Origin: Gammaproteobacteria bacterium
GTDB taxonomy: Bacteria > Pseudomonadota > Gammaproteobacteria > JAABTG01
Length of the DNA stretch: 64,000 bases
Direction: 5' to 3'
Assembly: GCA_034522055.1 (NCBI GenBank)
Contig: JAXHLS010000002.1
Span: 558,001-622,000, forward strand
Below are positions 2,816 through 47,238 of this stretch, one piece after another. Position 1 is the first letter of the stretch, and every line of letters starts with the position of its first letter. The translations under genes and the position numbers were made by a program. The notes below the pieces were generated by a model. It worked only from the letters and a program-made list of their open reading frames with translations, ran no database searches and was not told where the DNA came from.

Positions 2816-4515
<1,700 letters not shown>

Positions 4516-16294: not shown

Positions 16295-16834
16295 TTAAGG
16301 CAGCCACTGGACCTCGGGTTGGCCGTCGCGCTGGGCGGTGTGGCGGGCGGTGACGAAGAGCAGGTCGGAGAGGCGGTTGAGGTAACGCAGCACCGGTTCG
16401 CTGACTCCCTCGGCGTCCGCCAGGGCCACCAGGGCCCGCTCGGCCCGCCGGCACACCGCGCGGGCATGATGGCACAGGGCCGATGCCCGGCTGCCCCCCG
16501 GCAGGATGAAGGCCTTGAGGGGTGGCAGTTCGGCGTCCAGATCGTCGATCCATTGCTCCAGGGCGGCGAAGCCCGCGGCGGGAAACCCGCCCTGCCCCGC
16601 CCCCGCCAGTTCGGCACCGAGCACGAACAGGTCCTTCTGGATGGCGGTGAGGCGCTCCCGCACCCGCGCATCCAGGTCCTCGGCGAGCACCAGCCCCAGG
16701 GCGCTGTTCAGCTCGTCCAGGTCGCCGAGGACCTGGATTCTGGGGGCGTCCTTGCGGGTGCGGCGCCCGCCCAGCAGGCCGGTGGTGCCGTCGTCGCCGG
16801 TGCGGGTGTAAAGCCTGGAAGATCCACTACTCAT
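16295..16834 (-). CDS. ATP:cob(I)alamin adenosyltransferase, PduO type
   Basis: The enzyme adenosylates cob(I)alamin to coenzyme B12. The 179-residue product has the PduO-family N-terminal ATP loop YTRTGDDGTTGLLGG, the conserved VLGDLDELNSALG helix, and the RYLNRLSDLLFVTAR helix near the end. It lies 34 bases downstream of btuB and is probably co-transcribed from the cobalamin riboswitch. This pairs uptake with conversion to AdoCbl, which could also feed the CarH-like sensor at 45155-46261. Confidence 0.93.
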   Translation of the reverse strand: MSSGSSRLYTRTGDDGTTGLLGGRRTRKDAPRIQVLGDLDELNSALGLVLAEDLDARVRERLTAIQKDLFVLGAELAGAGQGGFPAAGFAALEQWIDDLDAELPPLKAFILPGGSRASALCHHARAVCRRAERALVALADAEGVSEPVLRYLNRLSDLLFVTARHTAQRDGQPEVQWLP

Positions 16835-16868: not shown

Positions 16869-18695
16869 TCAGCGCGCCGTGTATTCCAATGTGACCATCA
16901 ATCTGCGGTCCTGGGTATTGAAGCCCGAGGCCATTTCGTAGTCCTTGTCCAGGAGGTTGTCGATTCTTGCCCGCAGGTGCAACTCATGAGAAAGGCGATA
17001 GTCGCCGGAGACGTTGACCAGGCCGTAACCGGGCAACCGGGTATTGAAATCCTCCCGATCGCCCACCAGCAGCACCTCGGCCTGCAGGTGGCCTTGCCCC
17101 AGAATGTCACGGCCCACGGTCAGTTGCATTTTCTCATCGGGACGGCGCAGCAGGCGGCTGTCATCATCATCGTTACGCGGACGCTGCAGGGTCAGATTGG
17201 CGTCCAGATGCCAGGGGCCGAGGCGGTCCCGGTACTCCAGCTCCAGGCCCTCGATGGAGGCCTCATCGATATTGATGGCCCGGGAGTTGACCCCCTCGAA
17301 GGCGATGAGATCATCGATACGGGTATGGAAGAGGTTGAGGGCCACCCGCCGTTGCGGTCTGTCTGCGGGTTCATAACGCAGCCCCACCTCGGCGCTGCGG
17401 GAGCGTTCGGGCTCGAGATCGGGGTTGCCGGCGAAGAACCCGAAGAAACCGGGATCGAACAACTGATTCAGGGTGGGTGCCTTGAAGGCGGTGCCGTAGG
17501 AGGCAAAGACCCGCAGGTCGCGGCCCAAGGGGTGTCCCCAGGCCACCTGGCCGGTGGTCTCGCCACCGGCGCGACTGTGGTCGTCATGGCGCACCGAGAA
17601 CTGGATGTCATGTAACCCCAGCCCGGATTGCAGACCGGCGAAGGCGGCGCGGTTGGTGATGACCTCGTCGAAACGGGCGACGCCGGCGATCCGGTCCACG
17701 TTCTCGCCTTCTTCCCGATAGTAGTCCAGGCCGGCACTCAACAGGTGGCGTTCCCCCAGGACGATGTCGTGCTGCCAGCTTGCCGTGAGCCGCTCGCCCT
17801 CGATGTCCGAGGCAAAGGCCGAGTCGGTCTCCAGCTCATCGCGGGCATTTCCCACTTCAAGGGAGTGGCCCCAGCGTTCGTTGACCCGCGTATCCAGCGA
17901 CGCGGTGAGACTCTGGTTGATGCTGTCCTGGGTGCCGATATCGAACTCGATATCCCCCTCGCTGCGCCAGAAGGCCACTGTCAGGGCCAGATCATCGCTG
18001 AGGTCCGCATTCCAGCGCGCGCTCAGGCTGCGATTGCGGTAACCATCGTCGTCGGGATCGAAGCCGAAGCCGATGCCCTCGTTGGTGGCCGAGAAGCCGT
18101 CCGTGTTGATGGCGGCGACGTTGAGGCTCACGCCATGCCGGCCCGTGGTGGCCCCATAGCCCACGGTACCCTGGAAGGTCCGATCACCGCCGGCACCGAT
18201 GCTGGCATGGGCCCCGTCGTTGTCGCGGGTGAAGATCTGAATCACCCCGCCGATGGCATCCGAGCCATACAGGCTGGCGCGCGGACCCCGCACGATCTCG
18301 ATGCGCTCGATCTGTTGCGGGCTGAGATGCTGCCAGGCGAAACCGCCGGTGGTGATGGAGGAGACCCGCACGCCGTCGATGAGCACCAGGACGTGGTCCG
18401 AGTTCGTGCCCCGCATGAACAGGCTCACGTTCTGACCGGGGCCGCCGCTGCGGGTCATGTCGATACCGGCCTCGCCCCGCAGCAGTTCGAGCATGCCCTG
18501 GGGCTGGCTGCGCTCGATGTCCTCGCGGGTGATCACGGTGACCGGCGCCAGACTCTCACGGGCGGTCACGGCGGTGCGGGTGGCGGTGACCACTACCGGC
18601 TCCATGGTATAGGCCTCGGCCAGGACGGCGGCGGGCATGAGCGCCGCGACCAGGGGCACGGCAGCGATGACGAGAAACGCAGGGTATTGTTGCAT
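16869..18695 (-). CDS. btuB: TonB-dependent vitamin B12 receptor BtuB
   Basis: This 608-residue outer-membrane receptor has a signal peptide ending AAVLAEA, then a TonB-box-like segment (EPVVVTATRT). The plug domain has RGPRASLYGSDAIGGVIQIFT, followed by a 22-strand barrel ending MVTLEYTAR, with the terminal aromatic close to the end. The ATG at 18695 gives a normal signal peptide; the frame runs further upstream without one. Assignment to BtuB rests on the receptor type plus the cobalamin riboswitch upstream and the adenosyltransferase downstream. Confidence 0.92.
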   Translation of the reverse strand: MQQYPAFLVIAAVPLVAALMPAAVLAEAYTMEPVVVTATRTAVTARESLAPVTVITREDIERSQPQGMLELLRGEAGIDMTRSGGPGQNVSLFMRGTNSDHVLVLIDGVRVSSITTGGFAWQHLSPQQIERIEIVRGPRASLYGSDAIGGVIQIFTRDNDGAHASIGAGGDRTFQGTVGYGATTGRHGVSLNVAAINTDGFSATNEGIGFGFDPDDDGYRNRSLSARWNADLSDDLALTVAFWRSEGDIEFDIGTQDSINQSLTASLDTRVNERWGHSLEVGNARDELETDSAFASDIEGERLTASWQHDIVLGERHLLSAGLDYYREEGENVDRIAGVARFDEVITNRAAFAGLQSGLGLHDIQFSVRHDDHSRAGGETTGQVAWGHPLGRDLRVFASYGTAFKAPTLNQLFDPGFFGFFAGNPDLEPERSRSAEVGLRYEPADRPQRRVALNLFHTRIDDLIAFEGVNSRAINIDEASIEGLELEYRDRLGPWHLDANLTLQRPRNDDDDSRLLRRPDEKMQLTVGRDILGQGHLQAEVLLVGDREDFNTRLPGYGLVNVSGDYRLSHELHLRARIDNLLDKDYEMASGFNTQDRRLMVTLEYTAR

Positions 18696-18819
18696 GGAGG
18701 ACTCCGAACTGGCGCGGTGGTCCCCTGGAGGCAACAGGCATAGCCATCGTTGACCACTCGCTAGCGGTGGCCGCAGTCGCCATGCGCCGTCCACCGCCCA
18801 CCGCGGCTACCAACGAAAC

Positions 18820-19020
18820 ACTCCAGGCCGGTCTCCGGACTCACGAGCACCGGGTGACTACCCGGAGGGGACGAACGGCCTTCCCGCGGCGTGCCGCAGT
18901 GGCTAGGGGTTCGACCCTTGACTCGCCTACCGTTGCGGGGGCAGTGCCGGCCTTGTCGGCGATGGATATCGCGACGCACCGGCTTCCCGTTTCACCCGCA
19001 CCCTCGATTAGGGCGCGGAC
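18820..19020 (-). promoter_or_regulatory. Cobalamin riboswitch upstream of btuB
   Basis: Read on the minus strand, the 3' part holds the B12 box GAGTCCGGAGACCGGCCT (18825-18842), an almost perfect match to the consensus. The 5' part holds GAAACGGGAAGCCGGTG, the P3/J region of the class. GCCACTGCGGC and GGGAAGGCC elements lie between. The element ends about 125 bases before the btuB start codon, leaving room for an expression platform. It should lower BtuB and adenosyltransferase synthesis when AdoCbl is plentiful. Confidence 0.9.
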
Positions 19021-19109
19021 ACCTGAAGCACGATTGAATCAGATTACTGCAATGACTCCGGACGGGCAGCGGCGCGTCACCGCACCGCCGCCGGCACCCG
19101 GTTTTGACC

Positions 19110-38350: not shown

Positions 38351-40341
38351 GTAGAGTAGAGAGCAGGCCCTAACGCCCGTAGGTCCGGCTTAGCGGTTCC
38401 CGCCCCTTTCGTTTGGCGGTGCCTAAATAGCCGGGCCGTAGCCACCAGGGCCAGCCCTCCCTCATCAAACCGTGCATACGGTTCTCCCGTACACGGCTTT
38501 CCGATGTGCTTCACGCCAAGGCATGCGCTGAGCGCCAGCCTGCTTTATGGGATAGCTTGAGTAATCCAAGGGCGTCGTGGAGGTGGGCGTAGGGAAAGCG
38601 TTCGTAACCGCGCGTGCGAGTGCGCACTTTGTGACGCCGCCGCAGTTGGGTACGCACGCGTTCCTCAGTGAACCACCGGACGCGTCCGAAAGCCTTGGTG
38701 CAGTTGCCGTAGTGGAAGTAGCCCGACCAGCCGCGTAGCACTTGGTTCACTTCCGTGATCATACGCGGCATCGGCACCGGAGTGCGGCGCCGCGCGGTGA
38801 GTTCCTTGATGCGCGCCTTGATCCTTCGTTCGGCGCGGCGGCTCGGCTCAACGTGAGGGTAGCCGTTGCCGGTTCGTCGGCTGCGTGCCCATTGATGCTG
38901 AAGCCAAGAAAGTCGAACGCCTGTCGGCGGGCATCGACCACGTGGGTTTTCTCCCGGTTGAGCGTCAACTCCAGGCGTGTCAGCACCGTCTCAAGCACCG
39001 CCATGGCCGGCGCGGTGTCCCCACGACACAGAATCACGGCATCGTCAGCGTAACGCACGAGGCGCGCCCCTAACCGCCGTTCCAAGTCGTGCCGTTCCCA
39101 AATCCGGTCCAGCAGATGTAGATAAAGATTGGCCAGCAGCGGGGAAACAACCCCGCCTTGCGGCGTCCCTTTCCGATTCCCTTTACCGCCACTCGGGCGT
39201 TGCTTGCCTCGCCCATCCTCTTCGATGACCGGGGCCTTGAGCCATTGCTGAATGAGGGCGAGGACGCCCCCATCGGCAAGGCGCTCGGCAACCACGGCCA
39301 TGAGCTTGGCGTGCGGGATCGTATCGAAATACTTCGATAGATCCGCATCGATGATTTGGGTCTTTCCCTGAAACAGACCGTCGGTGACGGCCTTCACCGC
39401 ATCATGGGCCGAGCGCTGCGGGCGAAATCCATAGGAGTGCTCGCAGAAATCAGCCTCGAAGATCGGCTCCACCAGCAGCTTGAGCGCCATCTGTACGATC
39501 CGATCCCGGATTGTGGGGATCCCCAATGGGCGCTCACTGCCATCCGGCTTGGGTATCCAGACCCGACGCACGCCGTCCGCGCCGTACGTCTTCTGCTCCA
39601 GTTCCCGTTGCAATTCCGCCAAGTAGGCGTCTCTTCCGACCCCCGCCTCGATGGCCTCACAGGTCACACCATCGATTCCTGGCGCGCCCCGATTGGACCT
39701 GACACGATCATAGGCGTGACCGAGAGTGTCTGCCCGATAGACCTTGTCATACAAGGCGTAGAAGCGAAACGCCGGCTCTTGCTTGGCCTTGACGTAGAGC
39801 TTCCTCTGCAGCGTCCTGATCTTTTCCGGAGTTGTTAGCGACATCGCCGCAATCTCCTGACCCTCTGCGTTTCGGTTGCGTGCACAAAGTAGGGTCCCTT
39901 CCCTCAGGTCGGGTTATGTTGTCCCAGACCCTCAATCGGTACTATGAACCCCTCCGACTCCCACGACGGTCGATGACGACTTCGGACTGGCCTTATACGC
40001 CACCGTCGGCAGTTCTCACCTGCCACCGCCGCGGGCCTCCCGCACTGGGACCAATCAACTTCCACCACATGCCACCCGTACTACCCCGGAAGACTCAGTG
40101 GGACGCTCTCGTCGTCTCCTCCCACCAACAGCGGCCTTCCCCGACTGTCCACCGGGTCGGCATCTTCACTTTGTTCACGAGGCTACATCTCGGTTCGCTT
40201 GCGCTGCGGCCTGCGGTTTTGCATCTACGTAACTTACGACCCCCGGTTACCCGGACGCCGCTCCGCGACACTACAAAGGTGTACGAGCAACTCCTTTGGC
40301 GGGACTCTAACCCGCTAGTTAATCAGCCTGTTACGGCATAC
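38351..40341 (-). mobile_element. Group II intron 1, inserted in a palindromic repeat
   Basis: On the minus strand the element starts GTATGCCG (40341) and ends CTCTCTACTCTAC (38351), about 1991 bases. Domain V is visible as AGCCGTGTAC-GGGAGAACC-GTATGCACGGTT near 38470-38500. It is followed by a domain VI region interrupted by about 90 extra bases. The RT gene inside is frameshifted. Joining the flanks gives GGAATTCCGG/GGACAGTATAC, which matches the intergenic motif at 44649-44668 and so supports both boundaries. The 5' GTATG deviates from the usual GTGYG. Confidence 0.8.
38511..39844 (-). pseudogene. Group II intron reverse transcriptase/maturase, frameshifted
   Basis: The N-terminal part (39844 to about 38891) carries RT motifs, including RPLGIPTIRDRIVQ, GTPQGGVVSPLLANLYLH and the catalytic RYADD. 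Around 38890 one base is missing. The expected continuation (WARSRRTGNGYPHVEPSRRA and then the maturase X domain MPMPRMITEVNQVLRGWSGY) is in another frame, open to 38511. Without the shift the protein would be about 445 residues. No HNH endonuclease domain is present. A sequencing error cannot be excluded. Confidence 0.85.
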
Positions 40342-41244: not shown

Positions 41245-43163
41245 GTGCGTCCGTGGAGGCGCATTTTCTGCACGGTGAGAGTCCGTGTCGGGGTAAGCCA
41301 AGGCCCCGTAGTCGAAGGTAACTGCGTCGTCGCGAGGCGGGGTGGAGAGCAACCGGAGGCGAACTGGCGGTCCGTAGGATGACGAACTCGATTCGGCGGT
41401 ACGGGACGGCGAGCCCGCTAGGAGAAGGTGAAGCCTGAAAATCATCGGATGCGCTGGGATTGGCGTGGAAAGCGACATTCGGGTCCCCTCCGTGGTTGGA
41501 GACGGAACGCTGGGAAGGAAATGCGAGAGAAGCGGGGAGACCTGACCGCCGTGGTGACGGTGGGCAGGAGTCAGAGCCTTCGTAGTACTGAACGGTTCTG
41601 CTGCGGTCATGGCGAGGTGCTGCGGAAACGCGGACCCAAGAGCTGGAGGGCGTCCTCCGCCTAAAACCGTGGGTGGTGCCGGGAAAGCGCGAAGAACAGA
41701 AATCGCGCCGAGGGAAGGGAGGCAGGAAGGTGGATGGGTGAAGTCTGGAGGAGGTGAGCGCGTATGCAAAGGGTCGAGAGTGTCTCGCAAGAGGCTAAGC
41801 CAGACTCGTCCAACCCGGTGGAATGGCCGTGGGTGGACCGCACGATCTGGACGGAGCGCATGTTGGCGGCGCTGGGTAACGGCGTCCAAGGGACGAAGTG
41901 GTTCAGTCTGATCGACAAGGTGCATCGCCCCCAGACCCTGGAACGGGCGTGGCAGGATGTGCGGGCCAACCGGGGTTCAGCGGGGGTGGATGGCCAGAGT
42001 GTGCAGCGTTTTGAGGCCCATGCCGAGTGGTATCTGGCGGAGTTGGGAGAGGCGCTGGGAATTGGACGGTACCGACCGGATGCGGTGCGTCGGGTGGAGA
42101 TTCCGAAGGGGACAGGGACGCGTCCCCTGGGCATTCCGACGGTGAAGGACCGGATTGTGCAGGCGGCGATGAAGCGGGTGCTCGAGCCGATTTTCGAGCA
42201 CCAGTTTTTGCCGATGAGTTACGGGTTTCGCCCGGGTCGCGGGTGCAAGGATGCGCTGCGGGAAGTGGATGGGCTGGTTCGGGAGGGCTACACCCATGTG
42301 GTGGATGCCGACCTGGCCCAGTACTTCGACACCATCCCGCACGAAGCGTTGATGGCCCGGGTCGAGGACCGGATCAGCGATGGTCGGATCCTCGACCTGC
42401 TGCGCGCCTGGTTGCGCCAGGACGTGGTGGCGGAGATAGCGCGCTGGACGCCGACCCGGGGCTCGCCCCAAGGGGCGGTGATCAGTCCGTTACTCGCGAA
42501 TCTGTACCTGCACGGGCTGGATGTACACATGACCCAGCGCGGCTATCGGATGGTTCGGTATGCTGACGACCTCGTGATCCTGTGTGCCAGTCCGGACGAA
42601 GCCCAGGAGGCGCTGCAGGAGTTGCGGCACTGGGTGGAGGCCAATGGTCTGCAACTGCACCCGGAGAAGACCCGTGTGGGGGATTGCCGGCAGCCCGGGG
42701 AAGGCTTTGAGTTTCTCGGGTACCGGTTTGAAGCGGGACGGCGGTGGGTACGCAAGAAGAGCCGCAAGGCCCTTTACGACCGGGTCCGGGCCAAAACCCG
42801 GCGCAGTCGTGGGGATTCGCTGGCGCGGATTGTGGCCGACCTGAACCCGATGCTGCGTGGCTGGTTCGTGTATTTCCAGCACGCGCACCCGTGGACCTTT
42901 CCTCGCGTGGACGGTTTTGTCCGACGTCGATTACGGGCGCTGTTGCGCAAGCAGCAGAAGCGCCCGGGAGCGGGTCATTGTCAGTCCGACCATCTCCGCT
43001 GGCCGAACGCGTTCTTCGCTGCGGCTGGGCTTTTCACCATGACCGAAGCCCGGACGTTGGCGAGCCAATCCCGATGAGGTAACCACCGACTGGAGAGCCG
43101 TGTGCGGGAGAACCGCATGCACGGTTCGGAGGGCGGGGAGGGTCACTCCTTCCCGACCCCTAT
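41245..43163 (+). mobile_element. Group II intron 2, inserted in a REP palindrome
   Basis: The 5' end is GTGCG (41245-41249). The 3' part has domain V (GAGCCGTGTGC-GGGAGAACC-GCATGCACGGTTC, 43094-43127), a short domain VI and the terminal AT at 43163, for a total of 1919 bases. The 5' flank TCGCGCCCAAGGGCGCTCCT (41224-41243) is identical to 55976-55995. The 3' flank CGGGG (43164) continues that repeat as at 55997-56001, so the element interrupts a known palindromic repeat at a defined base. Insertion just after a hairpin suggests a class C-like intron. Confidence 0.9.
41764..43077 (+). CDS. Group II intron reverse transcriptase/maturase, intact
   Basis: The 437-residue intron-encoded protein has RT motifs throughout: ANRGSAGVDGQSVQRFEAHA, RPLGIPTVKDRIVQAAMKRV, GSPQGAVISPLLANLYLHGL and the catalytic RYADDLVILC. 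A maturase X domain (MLRGWFVYFQHAHPW) follows and no endonuclease domain. Splicing and retrohoming assistance are the expected roles. It is clearly a different lineage from the RT of intron 1. The start codon lies about 520 bases into the intron, in the domain IV position. Confidence 0.93.
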   Translation: MQRVESVSQEAKPDSSNPVEWPWVDRTIWTERMLAALGNGVQGTKWFSLIDKVHRPQTLERAWQDVRANRGSAGVDGQSVQRFEAHAEWYLAELGEALGIGRYRPDAVRRVEIPKGTGTRPLGIPTVKDRIVQAAMKRVLEPIFEHQFLPMSYGFRPGRGCKDALREVDGLVREGYTHVVDADLAQYFDTIPHEALMARVEDRISDGRILDLLRAWLRQDVVAEIARWTPTRGSPQGAVISPLLANLYLHGLDVHMTQRGYRMVRYADDLVILCASPDEAQEALQELRHWVEANGLQLHPEKTRVGDCRQPGEGFEFLGYRFEAGRRWVRKKSRKALYDRVRAKTRRSRGDSLARIVADLNPMLRGWFVYFQHAHPWTFPRVDGFVRRRLRALLRKQQKRPGAGHCQSDHLRWPNAFFAAAGLFTMTEARTLASQSR

Positions 43164-43234: not shown

Positions 43235-43666
43235 CTACAGGCCAAAAGGCACGCCCATCCCGAGCAGGCCCGCGGCCTTGTTGAGGCGCCGGTCGAAGCA
43301 GGCGAAGGTCAAGTCCTGGCCCGAGAGCTCCATGACCCCGGCGGCCGCCGCAAGCTGGACCGCGTCGTAGCCGCGCAGGGCGAAGGCATCGGCATACTCC
43401 CCCGCCCGCTCCACCACCGCCTGGCTGACGTCGGCCACCACGTAGTTCCCCCAGTCCACCGCCAGACTCTGCCGCGCACGCTCCATCCCATCCTGGTCCG
43501 CCGCGACCTCCCGGGCCCGGCGTGCGGTGGCGGCGTGATACTCGGCCCAGGCGATGCGACAGACGGCGACGGCCTCCGCCTCTTCCACCAGCGCCTTGAC
43601 CTCCCGGGCGTGGGACTCGCTGATATAGAGCTTCACCAGCGCCGAGGTATCACAGTAGAGGATCAA
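43235..43666 (-). CDS. vapC: PIN-domain toxin, VapC type
   Basis: The 143-residue PIN-domain RNase has the conserved acidic residues in LYCDTSALVKLY (first Asp), RIAWAEYHAAT (Glu) and LRGYDAVQLAAA (Asp), plus FACFDRRLNKAA. VapC toxins cleave tRNA or rRNA. It starts at TTG within a TTGA overlap with the antitoxin stop. Confidence 0.88.
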   Translation of the reverse strand: MILYCDTSALVKLYISESHAREVKALVEEAEAVAVCRIAWAEYHAATARRAREVAADQDGMERARQSLAVDWGNYVVADVSQAVVERAGEYADAFALRGYDAVQLAAAAGVMELSGQDLTFACFDRRLNKAAGLLGMGVPFGL

Positions 43667-43926
43667 CCGCGCTGCTCCAGCACCAGCGCCGACACCTCAC
43701 TTCCTGAGTCGTTGAGGTCGATATGGTCGCCGCGTGGCTTCCCGCCCTCCCACGTGGCCGCACCGCAAGCGATGAGGCGGGCAAGGCCCGAACTGGCGCC
43801 CTCGGGTACGCCGGTCACCCGCGCCACCACCTTGCGGTGGGAGGTGATCTCCACCGGCCGTCCGGCCCGCGCCTCCGCCAGGTAGCGGGACAGGTGCGCC
43901 TTGAATTCACGTATGGAAACCGTCAT
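43663..43926 (-). CDS. Phd/YefM-type antitoxin
   Basis: The 87-residue protein starts MTVSIREFKAHLSRYLAEAR, the Phd/YefM antitoxin N-terminus, and contains VEITSHRKVVARVTG. The C-terminal part would wrap the PIN toxin encoded immediately downstream. An in-frame start further upstream exists, but the ATG at 43926 fits the family. The weakly AT-rich DNA just upstream (43930-43990) should hold the promoter. Confidence 0.86.
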   Translation of the reverse strand: MTVSIREFKAHLSRYLAEARAGRPVEITSHRKVVARVTGVPEGASSGLARLIACGAATWEGGKPRGDHIDLNDSGSEVSALVLEQRG

Positions 43927-44240
43927 CGGTGGCCCTTTTTTAGATAAATTGAACTGAATTATGACCCTTATTATGCCGGCAATCAATGGGTTTTTAGTCA
44001 CATAACCCGGGTGGGCCCAAGCCGGTGACGGTAAAGGAATCAGTACTCTTTAGACTGGGGTACGCGGTCGGGAAACCGGTAGAGGGGGTCCGCGCCTTTC
44101 AAACTGGGCGGTAGGCTGCTTTGGTAAAGCAATTAATGGGTACTGACCTCTTGAGCGCCGGAGGGAGCTGCCGTAGCGCCCGCTCGCGCCTGCTGGTAAA
44201 CTGAACTCCTCAGTCAAACGGACTTGCGTGAGGTTTCAGG
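43927..44240. other. Gene-free stretch upstream of a small membrane-protein gene
   Basis: About 310 bases without a supportable ORF. The left end is AT-rich and likely carries the minus-strand antitoxin promoter. The rest contains no repeat or terminator that I can define. Confidence 0.4.
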
Positions 44241-44962: not shown

Positions 44963-45103
44963 ATGGCCACCCTCACCTTCGAAATTTCCGCCATCCTGGC
45001 GCTGGCTGCTGGCATCGCGATCCTGGTCGTACCGCGCCTGCTCAACTACATCGTCGCCTTCTATCTCATCGTCGTGGGTATCATGGGGCTGTTTAATCTC
45101 TAA
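44963..45103 (+). CDS. DUF3096-type 46-residue membrane peptide
   Basis: MATLTFEISAILALAAGIAI followed by LVVPRLLNYIVAFYLIVVGI encodes two hydrophobic helices separated by a VPR turn, the pattern of DUF3096 small membrane proteins. AAGGAGG lies at normal distance upstream. A second copy of the beginning of this gene, with its leader, occurs at 49809-49970. The function is unknown; relatives sit near stress genes. Confidence 0.8.
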   Translation: MATLTFEISAILALAAGIAILVVPRLLNYIVAFYLIVVGIMGLFNL

Positions 45104-45154: not shown

Positions 45155-46261
45155 TTACTTGTCTCCGTATCCCGGCTGGTGTCTTTGGTTTGGGGCACCG
45201 TCTCCCGCAACCGTTGCCAGGCCGCGGGCAGTCTCCACCGCCCCGGCAAGGTCGCTGGCCATGCCGTGGGCACCGAACTCACGCCACATCCCGGGGTTGG
45301 TACGAAACGCCGCGCCCCCCACCAGGATGCGCGGTCCGGGGTCGAGGGCGCGCAGGGCCTCGATGAGTTCCCGCGCCGCGGCGAGGTTCGTGGCCATGGT
45401 CACGGAGATCCCCACCAGGTCCAGCCCTTCCCGCGCCACCAGGGAGACGATCCCCTCGTGGGGGATCTGGGTGCCGAGGAATCGCACCGACCAGCCATCG
45501 GATTCGAGGAAGTCCGCCACCATGTGGGCTCCCACCTGGTGGAGTTCGTTGCGAACGCCCGTGACCACCGCCCGCCCGCGCTGCACATCAGGGCGGGGAA
45601 GGCGCGGGTAGAGCTGGGTCAGCATCGCCTGGGTCACCACCGTGGCCATGTGCTCCTCGGCCACGGTGATCCGGTTCTCGAACCACCTGCGCCCCACCTC
45701 GTACTGGGCGGCCTGAAGCACGTCCACATAGAGGTCGCGCAGGTCGACGCCCTGGGCCAAGGCCTCTTCCAGCAAGTTGCGGGCGGCCTGCCGATCCCCG
45801 CGCAGGGCGGCTTCGGTATAAAGCGAGGCGGTCACCGCGAGCGCGCCGGCGGGCTGCCCCCAGTCCAGGGGCCCGGCCTCCCGGGCCTGGCGGAGGGCGT
45901 CGCCCGCGAGGGACTCCGCCTGCGCCTGCTCCGCCGCCGGCAGCCACTTGCCTGCCGCCGCCGCCACATCCCCCAGGTGCTCATACAGGTCCGCCGCGGC
46001 CATGCCCCGCTGCTCCAGCAGATGCGCGGTCCACGTCAGGTAGTCGCGGAAGGGGTCGGGACGTGACAACTCCAACGCGGCGGCGAGGAAGTCGACGTGG
46101 AAGCGAGCATCCGCCTCCCCATGGATCCGGGCCCGCTCGCCGAAGCGCTCCAGCCACTCGGGATGGCGCTCCAGAAAGGCCTCGTTGGCGGCCCGGGCGA
46201 GGTCATCGCGGTGGTCGCGGAGGCGGCGGGCCGCGCGCGCGCTCGTGTCGATGGTACTCAT
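45155..46261 (-). CDS. CarH-like cobalamin-binding sensor protein without DNA-binding domain
   Basis: The 368-residue protein has a helical N-terminal region (~1-110), a B12-binding cap domain (~135-225) and a Rossmann B12-binding domain (~228-352). The cap carries Trp193-x9-Glu203-His204, the W-x9-EH signature of the AdoCbl photoreceptors CarH/LitR. The Rossmann part has Glu239-x-His241-xx-Gly244, whose His is the lower cobalt ligand, plus SVTMATN and VGGAAF. The MerR-type DNA-binding domain of CarH is absent. The start overlaps the stop of the upstream ABM-PAS gene (ATGA), so output is probably through that partner. Confidence 0.85.
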   Translation of the reverse strand: MSTIDTSARAARRLRDHRDDLARAANEAFLERHPEWLERFGERARIHGEADARFHVDFLAAALELSRPDPFRDYLTWTAHLLEQRGMAAADLYEHLGDVAAAAGKWLPAAEQAQAESLAGDALRQAREAGPLDWGQPAGALAVTASLYTEAALRGDRQAARNLLEEALAQGVDLRDLYVDVLQAAQYEVGRRWFENRITVAEEHMATVVTQAMLTQLYPRLPRPDVQRGRAVVTGVRNELHQVGAHMVADFLESDGWSVRFLGTQIPHEGIVSLVAREGLDLVGISVTMATNLAAARELIEALRALDPGPRILVGGAAFRTNPGMWREFGAHGMASDLAGAVETARGLATVAGDGAPNQRHQPGYGDK

Positions 46262-47238
46262 GCCGGGTCACCCCGCGACTTGTTCTTACGATAGTCCTCG
46301 AGAATGCGCTCCTTGCAGTCGGGGCAGTAGCCGTGGCTTAAGAAGAGCGAGTTCGCCTTCAGGTAATCCACCACGCTCTCCCAGCTGGCCTCGCCGGTCT
46401 TCACCTTCGAGCACCCCATGCAGATGGGGAGCACCTCCTGAATTTTCTTTAGATGCCAGTAGGAGTCCTCGAGTTCCGTGTGCGCCGCCTCCAGCTGCGC
46501 TCTAAGCCTCTCCACCTCCCTGCGCCGGCGCTCGTTCTCCCGCGCCAATTCGGCGAGCTCGTTGTTGGCCGCCTGCATCTGCTCCTGAAGTTCGTGCAGG
46601 GAGCGGGTGTCCGGCGTCCCCACGAGGACGATGCCCTCCCCGTCCCGCCGGAAGGAGCCCCTGAGCGAATAGGGCCGGTCCCGGCTGTCCACCATGGAGA
46701 GGCGGACCTCGCCCGTCTCCGGTGCTTCGGGATCGAGAAGCCCATCGAGGGTCGCCTCGTCCTGGGAGGCGCAGAAACTTGCGAGGGCCTGGCCCCGGAG
46801 AGCGTCCTCATCTCGGCCGAGCCAGTGCGCCGCTCCCCGGTTCACCGCGGCGATACGGCCTTGCGCGTCGACGGTGATGAGGTGGAGATCGGCGGTCACG
46901 GCGGCGAAAGACTCCAGGACCTCCGCAGTCGACACCGGCCCGGGGTGAAAGCGCTCCATGACCCGGATCTCGGTGACCTCCGGGTCGAGCTTCAGGCCCT
47001 TGGGAATGCCCCTTTGGGACTCCTGGAACTGGTGGCTGGCATGCCAGGCATGGAAGGCCGCCGCGGAGGTCCAGCGGGTCACGAGATAGAACAGCGCATC
47101 ATCCGCGGCATCCGTGAAAACCTCGATGCCGAGGAACCCGGCCGCCTCCTCGACCAGCCGCGGCCGCTGGTCAAAGGCGACCCTGACGGCATCCTCCATG
47201 CCGTTGCGAACACGGAAGCGGGAGATGACCAGTACCAT
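46258..47238 (-). CDS. ABM-PAS-coiled-coil-zinc protein, candidate signalling partner
   Basis: The 326-residue protein reads as a chain of four modules. Residues ~1-96 are an antibiotic-biosynthesis-monooxygenase/IsdG-like ferredoxin fold (MVLVISRFRVRNGME, FYLVTRWTSAAAFHAWHAS). Residues ~105-205 are a PAS domain. Residues ~212-268 are a coiled coil. Residues ~270-315 are a Cys4 element, with Cys273/Cys276 and Cys305/Cys308 (LPICMGCSKVK and SHGYCPDC), of the kind found after PAS or receiver domains. No kinase, cyclase or DNA-binding output is present. It is encoded first, overlapping the cobalamin protein. Confidence 0.82.
   Translation of the reverse strand: MVLVISRFRVRNGMEDAVRVAFDQRPRLVEEAAGFLGIEVFTDAADDALFYLVTRWTSAAAFHAWHASHQFQESQRGIPKGLKLDPEVTEIRVMERFHPGPVSTAEVLESFAAVTADLHLITVDAQGRIAAVNRGAAHWLGRDEDALRGQALASFCASQDEATLDGLLDPEAPETGEVRLSMVDSRDRPYSLRGSFRRDGEGIVLVGTPDTRSLHELQEQMQAANNELAELARENERRRREVERLRAQLEAAHTELEDSYWHLKKIQEVLPICMGCSKVKTGEASWESVVDYLKANSLFLSHGYCPDCKERILEDYRKNKSRGDPA

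Follow-up and report, generated by a model that had tools for sequence, protein, structure and literature searches.

Organization of the gene pair

Two overlapping genes on the minus strand of the window, by which we mean the whole stretch of 64,000 nucleotides analysed here, raise the question of which signal their products perceive and how it is passed on. A sequence-only reading had proposed a split light- or B12-responsive sensor in which a CarH-like protein is coupled to an ABM-PAS-zinc protein. The minus-strand arrangement and the ATGA overlap between the two ORFs were recovered as claimed:

46258..47238 (-): protein 1, ABM-PAS-coiled coil-Cys4 protein, 326 aa
45155..46261 (-): protein 2, photocobilin-type receptor with a C-terminal B12 domain, 368 aa

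Ahead of the first ATG lies a ribosome site resembling GGAGG. No kinase or response regulator was noticed among the ORFs around the pair.

The surrounding DNA holds several other features. A small hydrophobic ORF of ~46 aa (~44963-45101 (+), MATLTFEISAILALAAGIAILVVPRLLNYIVAFYLIVVGIMGLFNL) is convergent with the photocobilin gene. A PIN-domain protein and a Phd/YefM antitoxin (43235-44001 (-)) likely constitute a type II toxin-antitoxin system, and a pair of group II introns carrying reverse transcriptase ORFs lie less than 5 kb apart (38351-40308 (-) and 41764-43163 (+)). The 5' ureB small RNA (RF02514) was located antisense in the urease operon at 2964-3247 (-).

Assignment of protein 2

Protein 2 comprises three domains:

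45872..46261 (-): photoglobin (bilin-binding globin), aa ~1-130; alignment, profile A3 and site table
45611..45820 (-): B12-binding cap (four-helix bundle), aa 148-217, with G190, W193 and E203-H204; Pfam B12-binding_2, E=2e-17
45266..45574 (-): B12-binding Rossmann domain, aa 230-332, with E239-x-H241 (lower Co ligand) and G263-x3-P267; Pfam B12-binding, E=3.9e-22

The residues Trp193, Glu203, His204 and His241, singled out in the sequence-only reading, are present at these numbers and conserved among homologues. G190, W193, E203, H204, E239 and H241 were kept in 10/10 aligned sequences, with D at position 239 in two of them. Protein 2 thus has the cap and Rossmann domain of photocobilins with their W-x-EH and E/DxH motifs. 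The claimed absence of a MerR-type domain also held, as Pfam and NCBIfam gave no MerR or helix-turn-helix match. The description as a CarH-like protein without its DNA-binding domain did not survive, for it had overlooked a second sensory domain: at the N-terminus, where CarH carries its MerR-type DNA-binding domain, residues 1-130 of protein 2 form a photoglobin, so that the protein is more than a bare cobalamin domain.

The best PDB matches of protein 2 were the photocobilins 8j2w, 8j2x and 8j2y (2.7e-24 to 1.2e-23), and residues 15-95 aligned a second time, to the globin domain of the same structures, which sits at the opposite end from its counterpart in protein 2. A profile of 13 N-terminal photoglobin domains (A3) matched allophycocyanin (5e-7), SasPcob (1.4e-4) and AbPcob (0.017). 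In the AF2 model of protein 2 (pLDDT 88.6) the N-terminal domain is helical, and the B12 part retrieved 8jbs, 8j2w and CarH with Foldseek. D51 and W77 align with Asp270 and Trp296 of SasPcob, the biliverdin contacts named in the photocobilin paper (PMC10979010); chain index plus 6 gives the paper numbering, as verified on Trp61, Glu71 and His72. The Trp296 position was W in 13/13 sequences and the Asp270 position D or E in 11/13. Because the PDB matches, the globin profile, the biliverdin contacts and the model all agree, protein 2 is assigned, on sequence and model, as a photocobilin-type receptor and not as CarH minus one domain. Biliverdin is expected to be its second chromophore; PMC10979010 reports poor biliverdin binding by some photocobilins, e.g. 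AbDPcob.

Protein 2 might instead serve a B12-dependent methyltransferase system as its MtaC/MtgC/MtbC-like corrinoid protein, given that the NCBIfam models MtgC (1.9e-18) and pyl_corrinoid (4.1e-15) ranked above CarH (4.1e-14). These scores fell far under the curated cut-offs (66.7 vs 370 bits), however, and no methyltransferase gene was seen beside the protein 2 gene in the window. The W-x9-EH signature is that of light-dependent CarH-like B12 domains, the best PDB matches are photocobilins and the genomic partners are signalling proteins. This identity is highly improbable and was rejected on the low scores and the wrong partners.

Domains of protein 1

The order ABM-PAS-coiled coil-Cys4 described earlier for protein 1 was reproduced by Pfam matches to ABM and PAS_4, followed by the coiled coil and the Cys4 tail:

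47014..47238 (-): ABM domain, aa 1-75; Pfam ABM, 5.8e-16; profile A4 versus HmoB, MhuD and IsdI; triad table
46609..46926 (-): PAS domain, aa ~105-210; Pfam PAS_4, 1e-5; AF2 model; Foldseek matches to PAS structures
46435..46605 (-): long helix/coiled coil, aa ~212-268, with an NNEL-x3/4-RE motif; proposed docking site; motif scan; model helix 112-174 (A8 numbering)
46315..46422 (-): Cys4 element C273-x2-C276...H302...C305-x2-C308; candidate output module, also C-terminal in other sensor proteins

Haem, flavin or zinc had been suggested as a ligand of protein 1; for haem or flavin in the PAS domain no support was found. Judged as a LOV or haem PAS, the window domain does not qualify: its sole PAS-core His (AAHWLG) and Cys (SFCASQ) were not conserved in the two orthologues, L003 and L004. 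Foldseek matches of the PAS-helix model include PpsR N-Q-PAS1 (4l9g) and the AppA-PpsR complex (4hh3), with many PAS structures scoring equally. The helix motif NNEL-x3/4-RE was found by motif scan in both kinase and Cys4 partners of photocobilins.

In L003 and L004, orthologues of the PAS-coiled coil-Cys4 segment (36% and 34% identity) immediately precede the photocobilin gene. The conservation of the gene pair in other genomes, a check named in the sequence-only reading, was thereby confirmed as a PAS-coiled coil-Cys4 gene next to a B12 gene. The pair is real and conserved in kind; photocobilin plus PAS-relay partner is the more fitting name for it. From the proposed split sensor, the B12-type photoreceptor fold without DNA-binding domain and the PAS-coiled-coil partner stand, while the CarH identity falls.

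The Cys4 tail of protein 1 had no Pfam or NCBIfam match, and its model confidence of ~50 allowed no fold to be read. Since the element also terminates other sensors (membrane sensors as well as one GAF and one PAS protein) and is not named in Pfam or NCBIfam, it resembles a module for output or docking that is used repeatedly. At the loci L105-L108, a Cys4 tail of the form PICS-x-C-x-K-[IV]R...SHG-[IL]-CPDC ends membrane-sensor, GAF and PAS proteins; it is not in Pfam and could deserve its own family.

The ABM domains linked to photocobilins, the window domain included, belong to the IsdG/HmuQ haem-monooxygenase superfamily, with matches to HmuQ (up to 7.9e-14), HmoB, MhuD and IsdI. Characterised IsdG enzymes require an N-W-H catalytic triad (PMC5557675). 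The window domain has the ABM fold and bears S6, W65 and Q75 at the triad positions, two of the three residues being lost, so that haem oxygenase catalysis appears unlikely. Lacking the haem-ligand His, it most probably serves for dimerisation or for binding a tetrapyrrole. The triad positions are followed by the KGLKLDP tail, common to photocobilin-linked ABMs.

Gene neighbourhoods of photocobilins

To our knowledge, photocobilins are new and their natural partners largely unknown. Relatives were searched mainly by the photocobilin and their neighbours read afterwards; a second phylum search, centred on G354, returned the same genomes again. An ABM domain adjoined the photocobilin or was fused to its partner in 10/17 loci inspected. 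Stand-alone ABM genes (99-116 aa) were its neighbours in G032, G177, G665, G684, G679, G384, G354, G498 and G357, with the triad S-W-H in eight and N-W-H in G357; most linked ABMs share a KGLKL-x-P tail. Fusion to a PAS-coiled coil-Cys4 protein was seen once only, in the window. No adjacent ABM was present at the remaining 7/17 loci (G184, G286, L002, L003, L004, L095 and L096). As these genomes encode 1-3 ABM genes each, the chance of an immediate neighbour was estimated at ~0.1% per genome.

A PAS-coiled-coil or coiled-coil histidine kinase adjoined the photocobilin in L002, G032, G177, G665, G684, G679, G384, G357 and G184. The PAS-coiled-coil partner is thus a histidine kinase in most relatives and ends in a Cys4 tail in the window and two other genomes (L003 and L004). 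This conserved neighbourhood of ABM, photocobilin and PAS-coiled-coil relay supplies concrete candidate partners and points to one defined contact, namely the helix that follows PAS.

At two loci, L080 (G498) and L081 (G357), the photoglobin and B12 domains occupy two genes that adjoin one another, in opposite order, next to an ABM gene. The split genes possibly represent the pre-fusion state of photocobilins.

C-terminal-B12 photocobilins were known already, as were B12-fold proteins without DNA-binding domain that act on PAS-helix partners. Full-text literature searches for ABM or IsdG with B12 or bilin photoreceptors found no report of an ABM-photocobilin link, the founding paper on photoglobins (PMC8717448) lying outside their coverage. 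The new element appears to be the recurrent association of ABM domains with photocobilins, together with the ABM fusion in the window.

Supply of B12 and bilin

The B12 uptake and adenosyltransferase functions attributed to the window were both present, together with MetH:

16295-16834: PduO-type adenosyltransferase
16869-18794: BtuB-like receptor under the cobalamin riboswitch
18809-19041 (-): cobalamin riboswitch (Rfam RF00174, 102 bits), upstream of the BtuB-like receptor and the PduO adenosyltransferase

Such a setting would suit a pair that monitors the pool of adenosylcobalamin or the redox state of the corrin and controls functions related to B12, with no light sensing. GxxH is a light-response signature (PMC11796333), and its incompleteness in protein 2, where position 238 is N instead of G and the remaining signature elements are retained, points the same way. 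Yet the B12 genes lie 17-30 kb off in separate transcription units, and two hallmarks of a photoreceptor are present: an adenosyl pocket with Trp and Glu-His, and a photoglobin whose bilin contacts are conserved. We regard this AdoCbl- or redox-level reading as unlikely.

The ABM link poses two further questions: from where the bilin comes in these bacteria, most of them without a canonical haem oxygenase to be seen, and whether photoreceptor chromophores can come from IsdG-type enzymes. The linked ABM could be an enzyme dedicated to cleaving haem into the bilin of the photoglobin, the operon being self-supplying; the ABM domain of the window may retain haem or bilin binding and pass the ligand on. 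Membership of the haem-monooxygenase superfamily, the position beside a bilin-type globin in 10 genomes, the full N-W-H triad in G357 with W and H in eight others, and reported neighbourhoods of haem oxygenase, bilin globin and B12 protein (PMC10151467) are consistent with this supply role. Against it, the Asn required in characterised IsdG enzymes is Ser in 9/10 linked ABMs, the window domain also lacks the His, the products of characterised IsdG enzymes are staphylobilin or others and not biliverdin IX-alpha (PMC9393634), and seven photocobilin loci have no adjacent ABM.

The distribution of canonical haem oxygenase (PF01126) was also considered. It was found in 1/13 photocobilin genomes, namely that of the window, and was missing from most genomes with a linked ABM, G684 and G679 also lacking it, as chromophore supply by the ABM would predict. 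In the control set, however, only 8/43 genomes of the order of G032 contained PF01126, and one of the eight was G665, which has a linked ABM. The candidate inverse relation between ABM and canonical haem oxygenase was rejected on this control; the missing enzyme is not evidence alone because its absence is ordinary for the group of these genomes. On balance, chromophore supply by the linked ABM is possible but somewhat improbable.

A wider version, in which the photocobilin of a self-contained operon obtains a non-canonical bilin from an IsdG-type ABM, as its maker or carrier, and in turn switches the PAS-coiled-coil kinase, and in which the window ABM, fused to the partner, now serves as a tetrapyrrole sensor, seems doubtful. 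If it were true, protein 1 would report haem or bilin and protein 2 light or B12.

Ancestry

The window photocobilin grouped with homologues from Acidobacteriota and UBP9 (support 93/94), outside its own phylum, so that it may have been acquired. One same-genus, three same-family and 51 other genomes yielded no counterpart of the full ABM-PAS protein, which suggests an outside source. The photocobilin could be decaying after acquisition.

The linked ABMs were clustered in their tree, with three label changes compared to 8.2 in shuffles (0/500 as low). A single origin was considered and set aside as not proven in spite of this clustering, the ABM of G357 grouping with classical N-W-H ABMs. The presence of an ABM did not follow the photocobilin tree (five changes vs 5.7 shuffled), a pattern compatible with ancestral presence followed by losses as well as with gain on several occasions.

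Proposed mechanism

We consider it moderately probable that the pair is a light-gated two-protein relay, in which a photocobilin acts in trans on the PAS-coiled-coil protein 1. On the observed fold, residues and gene pairing, we infer each dynamic step as follows. Protein 2 would bind AdoCbl base-off in its C-terminal cap and Rossmann domain, with H241 below the corrin and W193 and E203-H204 around the adenosyl group, and its photoglobin probably binds a bilin, as in the family. Light would then cleave the Co-C bond of AdoCbl, and the loss of the adenosyl group, by extrapolation from SasPcob and CarH, would alter the dimer and the exposed cap surface. The altered surface may act in trans on protein 1, at the long helix that follows its PAS domain, in the way of SCHIC and AerR on the Q-linker of PpsR/CrtJ. 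Protein 1 would relay the signal to some target via its Cys4 tail, the element that stands where most relatives have a histidine kinase. The biliverdin of the window receptor would derive from the canonical haem oxygenase of its own genome, and the fused ABM has its relatives in the stand-alone proteins of IsdG/HmuQ type that are encoded together with photocobilins.

This order, from light over AdoCbl photolysis, cap surface and PAS-linked helix to a kinase in relatives or the Cys4 tail in the window, is proposed because of the photocobilin, AerR and SCHIC precedents and the PpsR-like model. Standalone photocobilins alter the activity of a partner enzyme in trans (PMC10979010). AerR and the SCHIC domain of AppA act on PAS proteins (PMC6199135, PMC9144470), the latter touching the Q-linker of PpsR, a long helix beside a PAS domain (PMC9144470).

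Comparison with known systems

The earlier statement that no system of this composition had been described was too strong, since AerR-CrtJ, AppA-PpsR and standalone photocobilins precede its core. CarH and LitR share with protein 2 the AdoCbl-binding domain with its Trp, Glu-His and ExH ligand motif; their MerR DNA-binding domain is missing in protein 2, which has a globin instead. The window ABM resembles IsdG, HmuQ and MhuD (PMC5557675) in its fold, the conserved Trp (W65), the Gly-Phe and a second Trp, and differs from them by S6 in place of the catalytic Asn, Q75 in place of the haem-ligand His, and the fusion to PAS.

We know of no photoglobin in AerR. The AerR-CrtJ and AppA-PpsR systems of purple bacteria (PMC6199135, PMC9144470) resemble the window pair in that a B12-fold protein without DNA-binding domain meets a PAS-helix partner, the contact being modelled or seen at the long helix beside the PAS domain. 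CrtJ and PpsR are helix-turn-helix repressors of photosystem genes, whereas protein 1 lacks a helix-turn-helix, contains a single PAS domain, ends in a Cys4 tail and carries an ABM domain.

The closest likeness is to the photocobilins SasPcob and AbDPcob (Zhang et al. 2024, PMC10979010). Like protein 2, they combine B12 cap, Rossmann domain and photoglobin, with the same W, EH and ExH motifs and the same bilin-contact Asp and Trp. The B12 domain is C-terminal in protein 2, unlike in these two solved photocobilins, and both positions, N- and C-terminal, are reported there for the family. The PAS-coiled-coil partner and the linked or fused ABM, which are not mentioned in the available part of that paper, set the window system apart.
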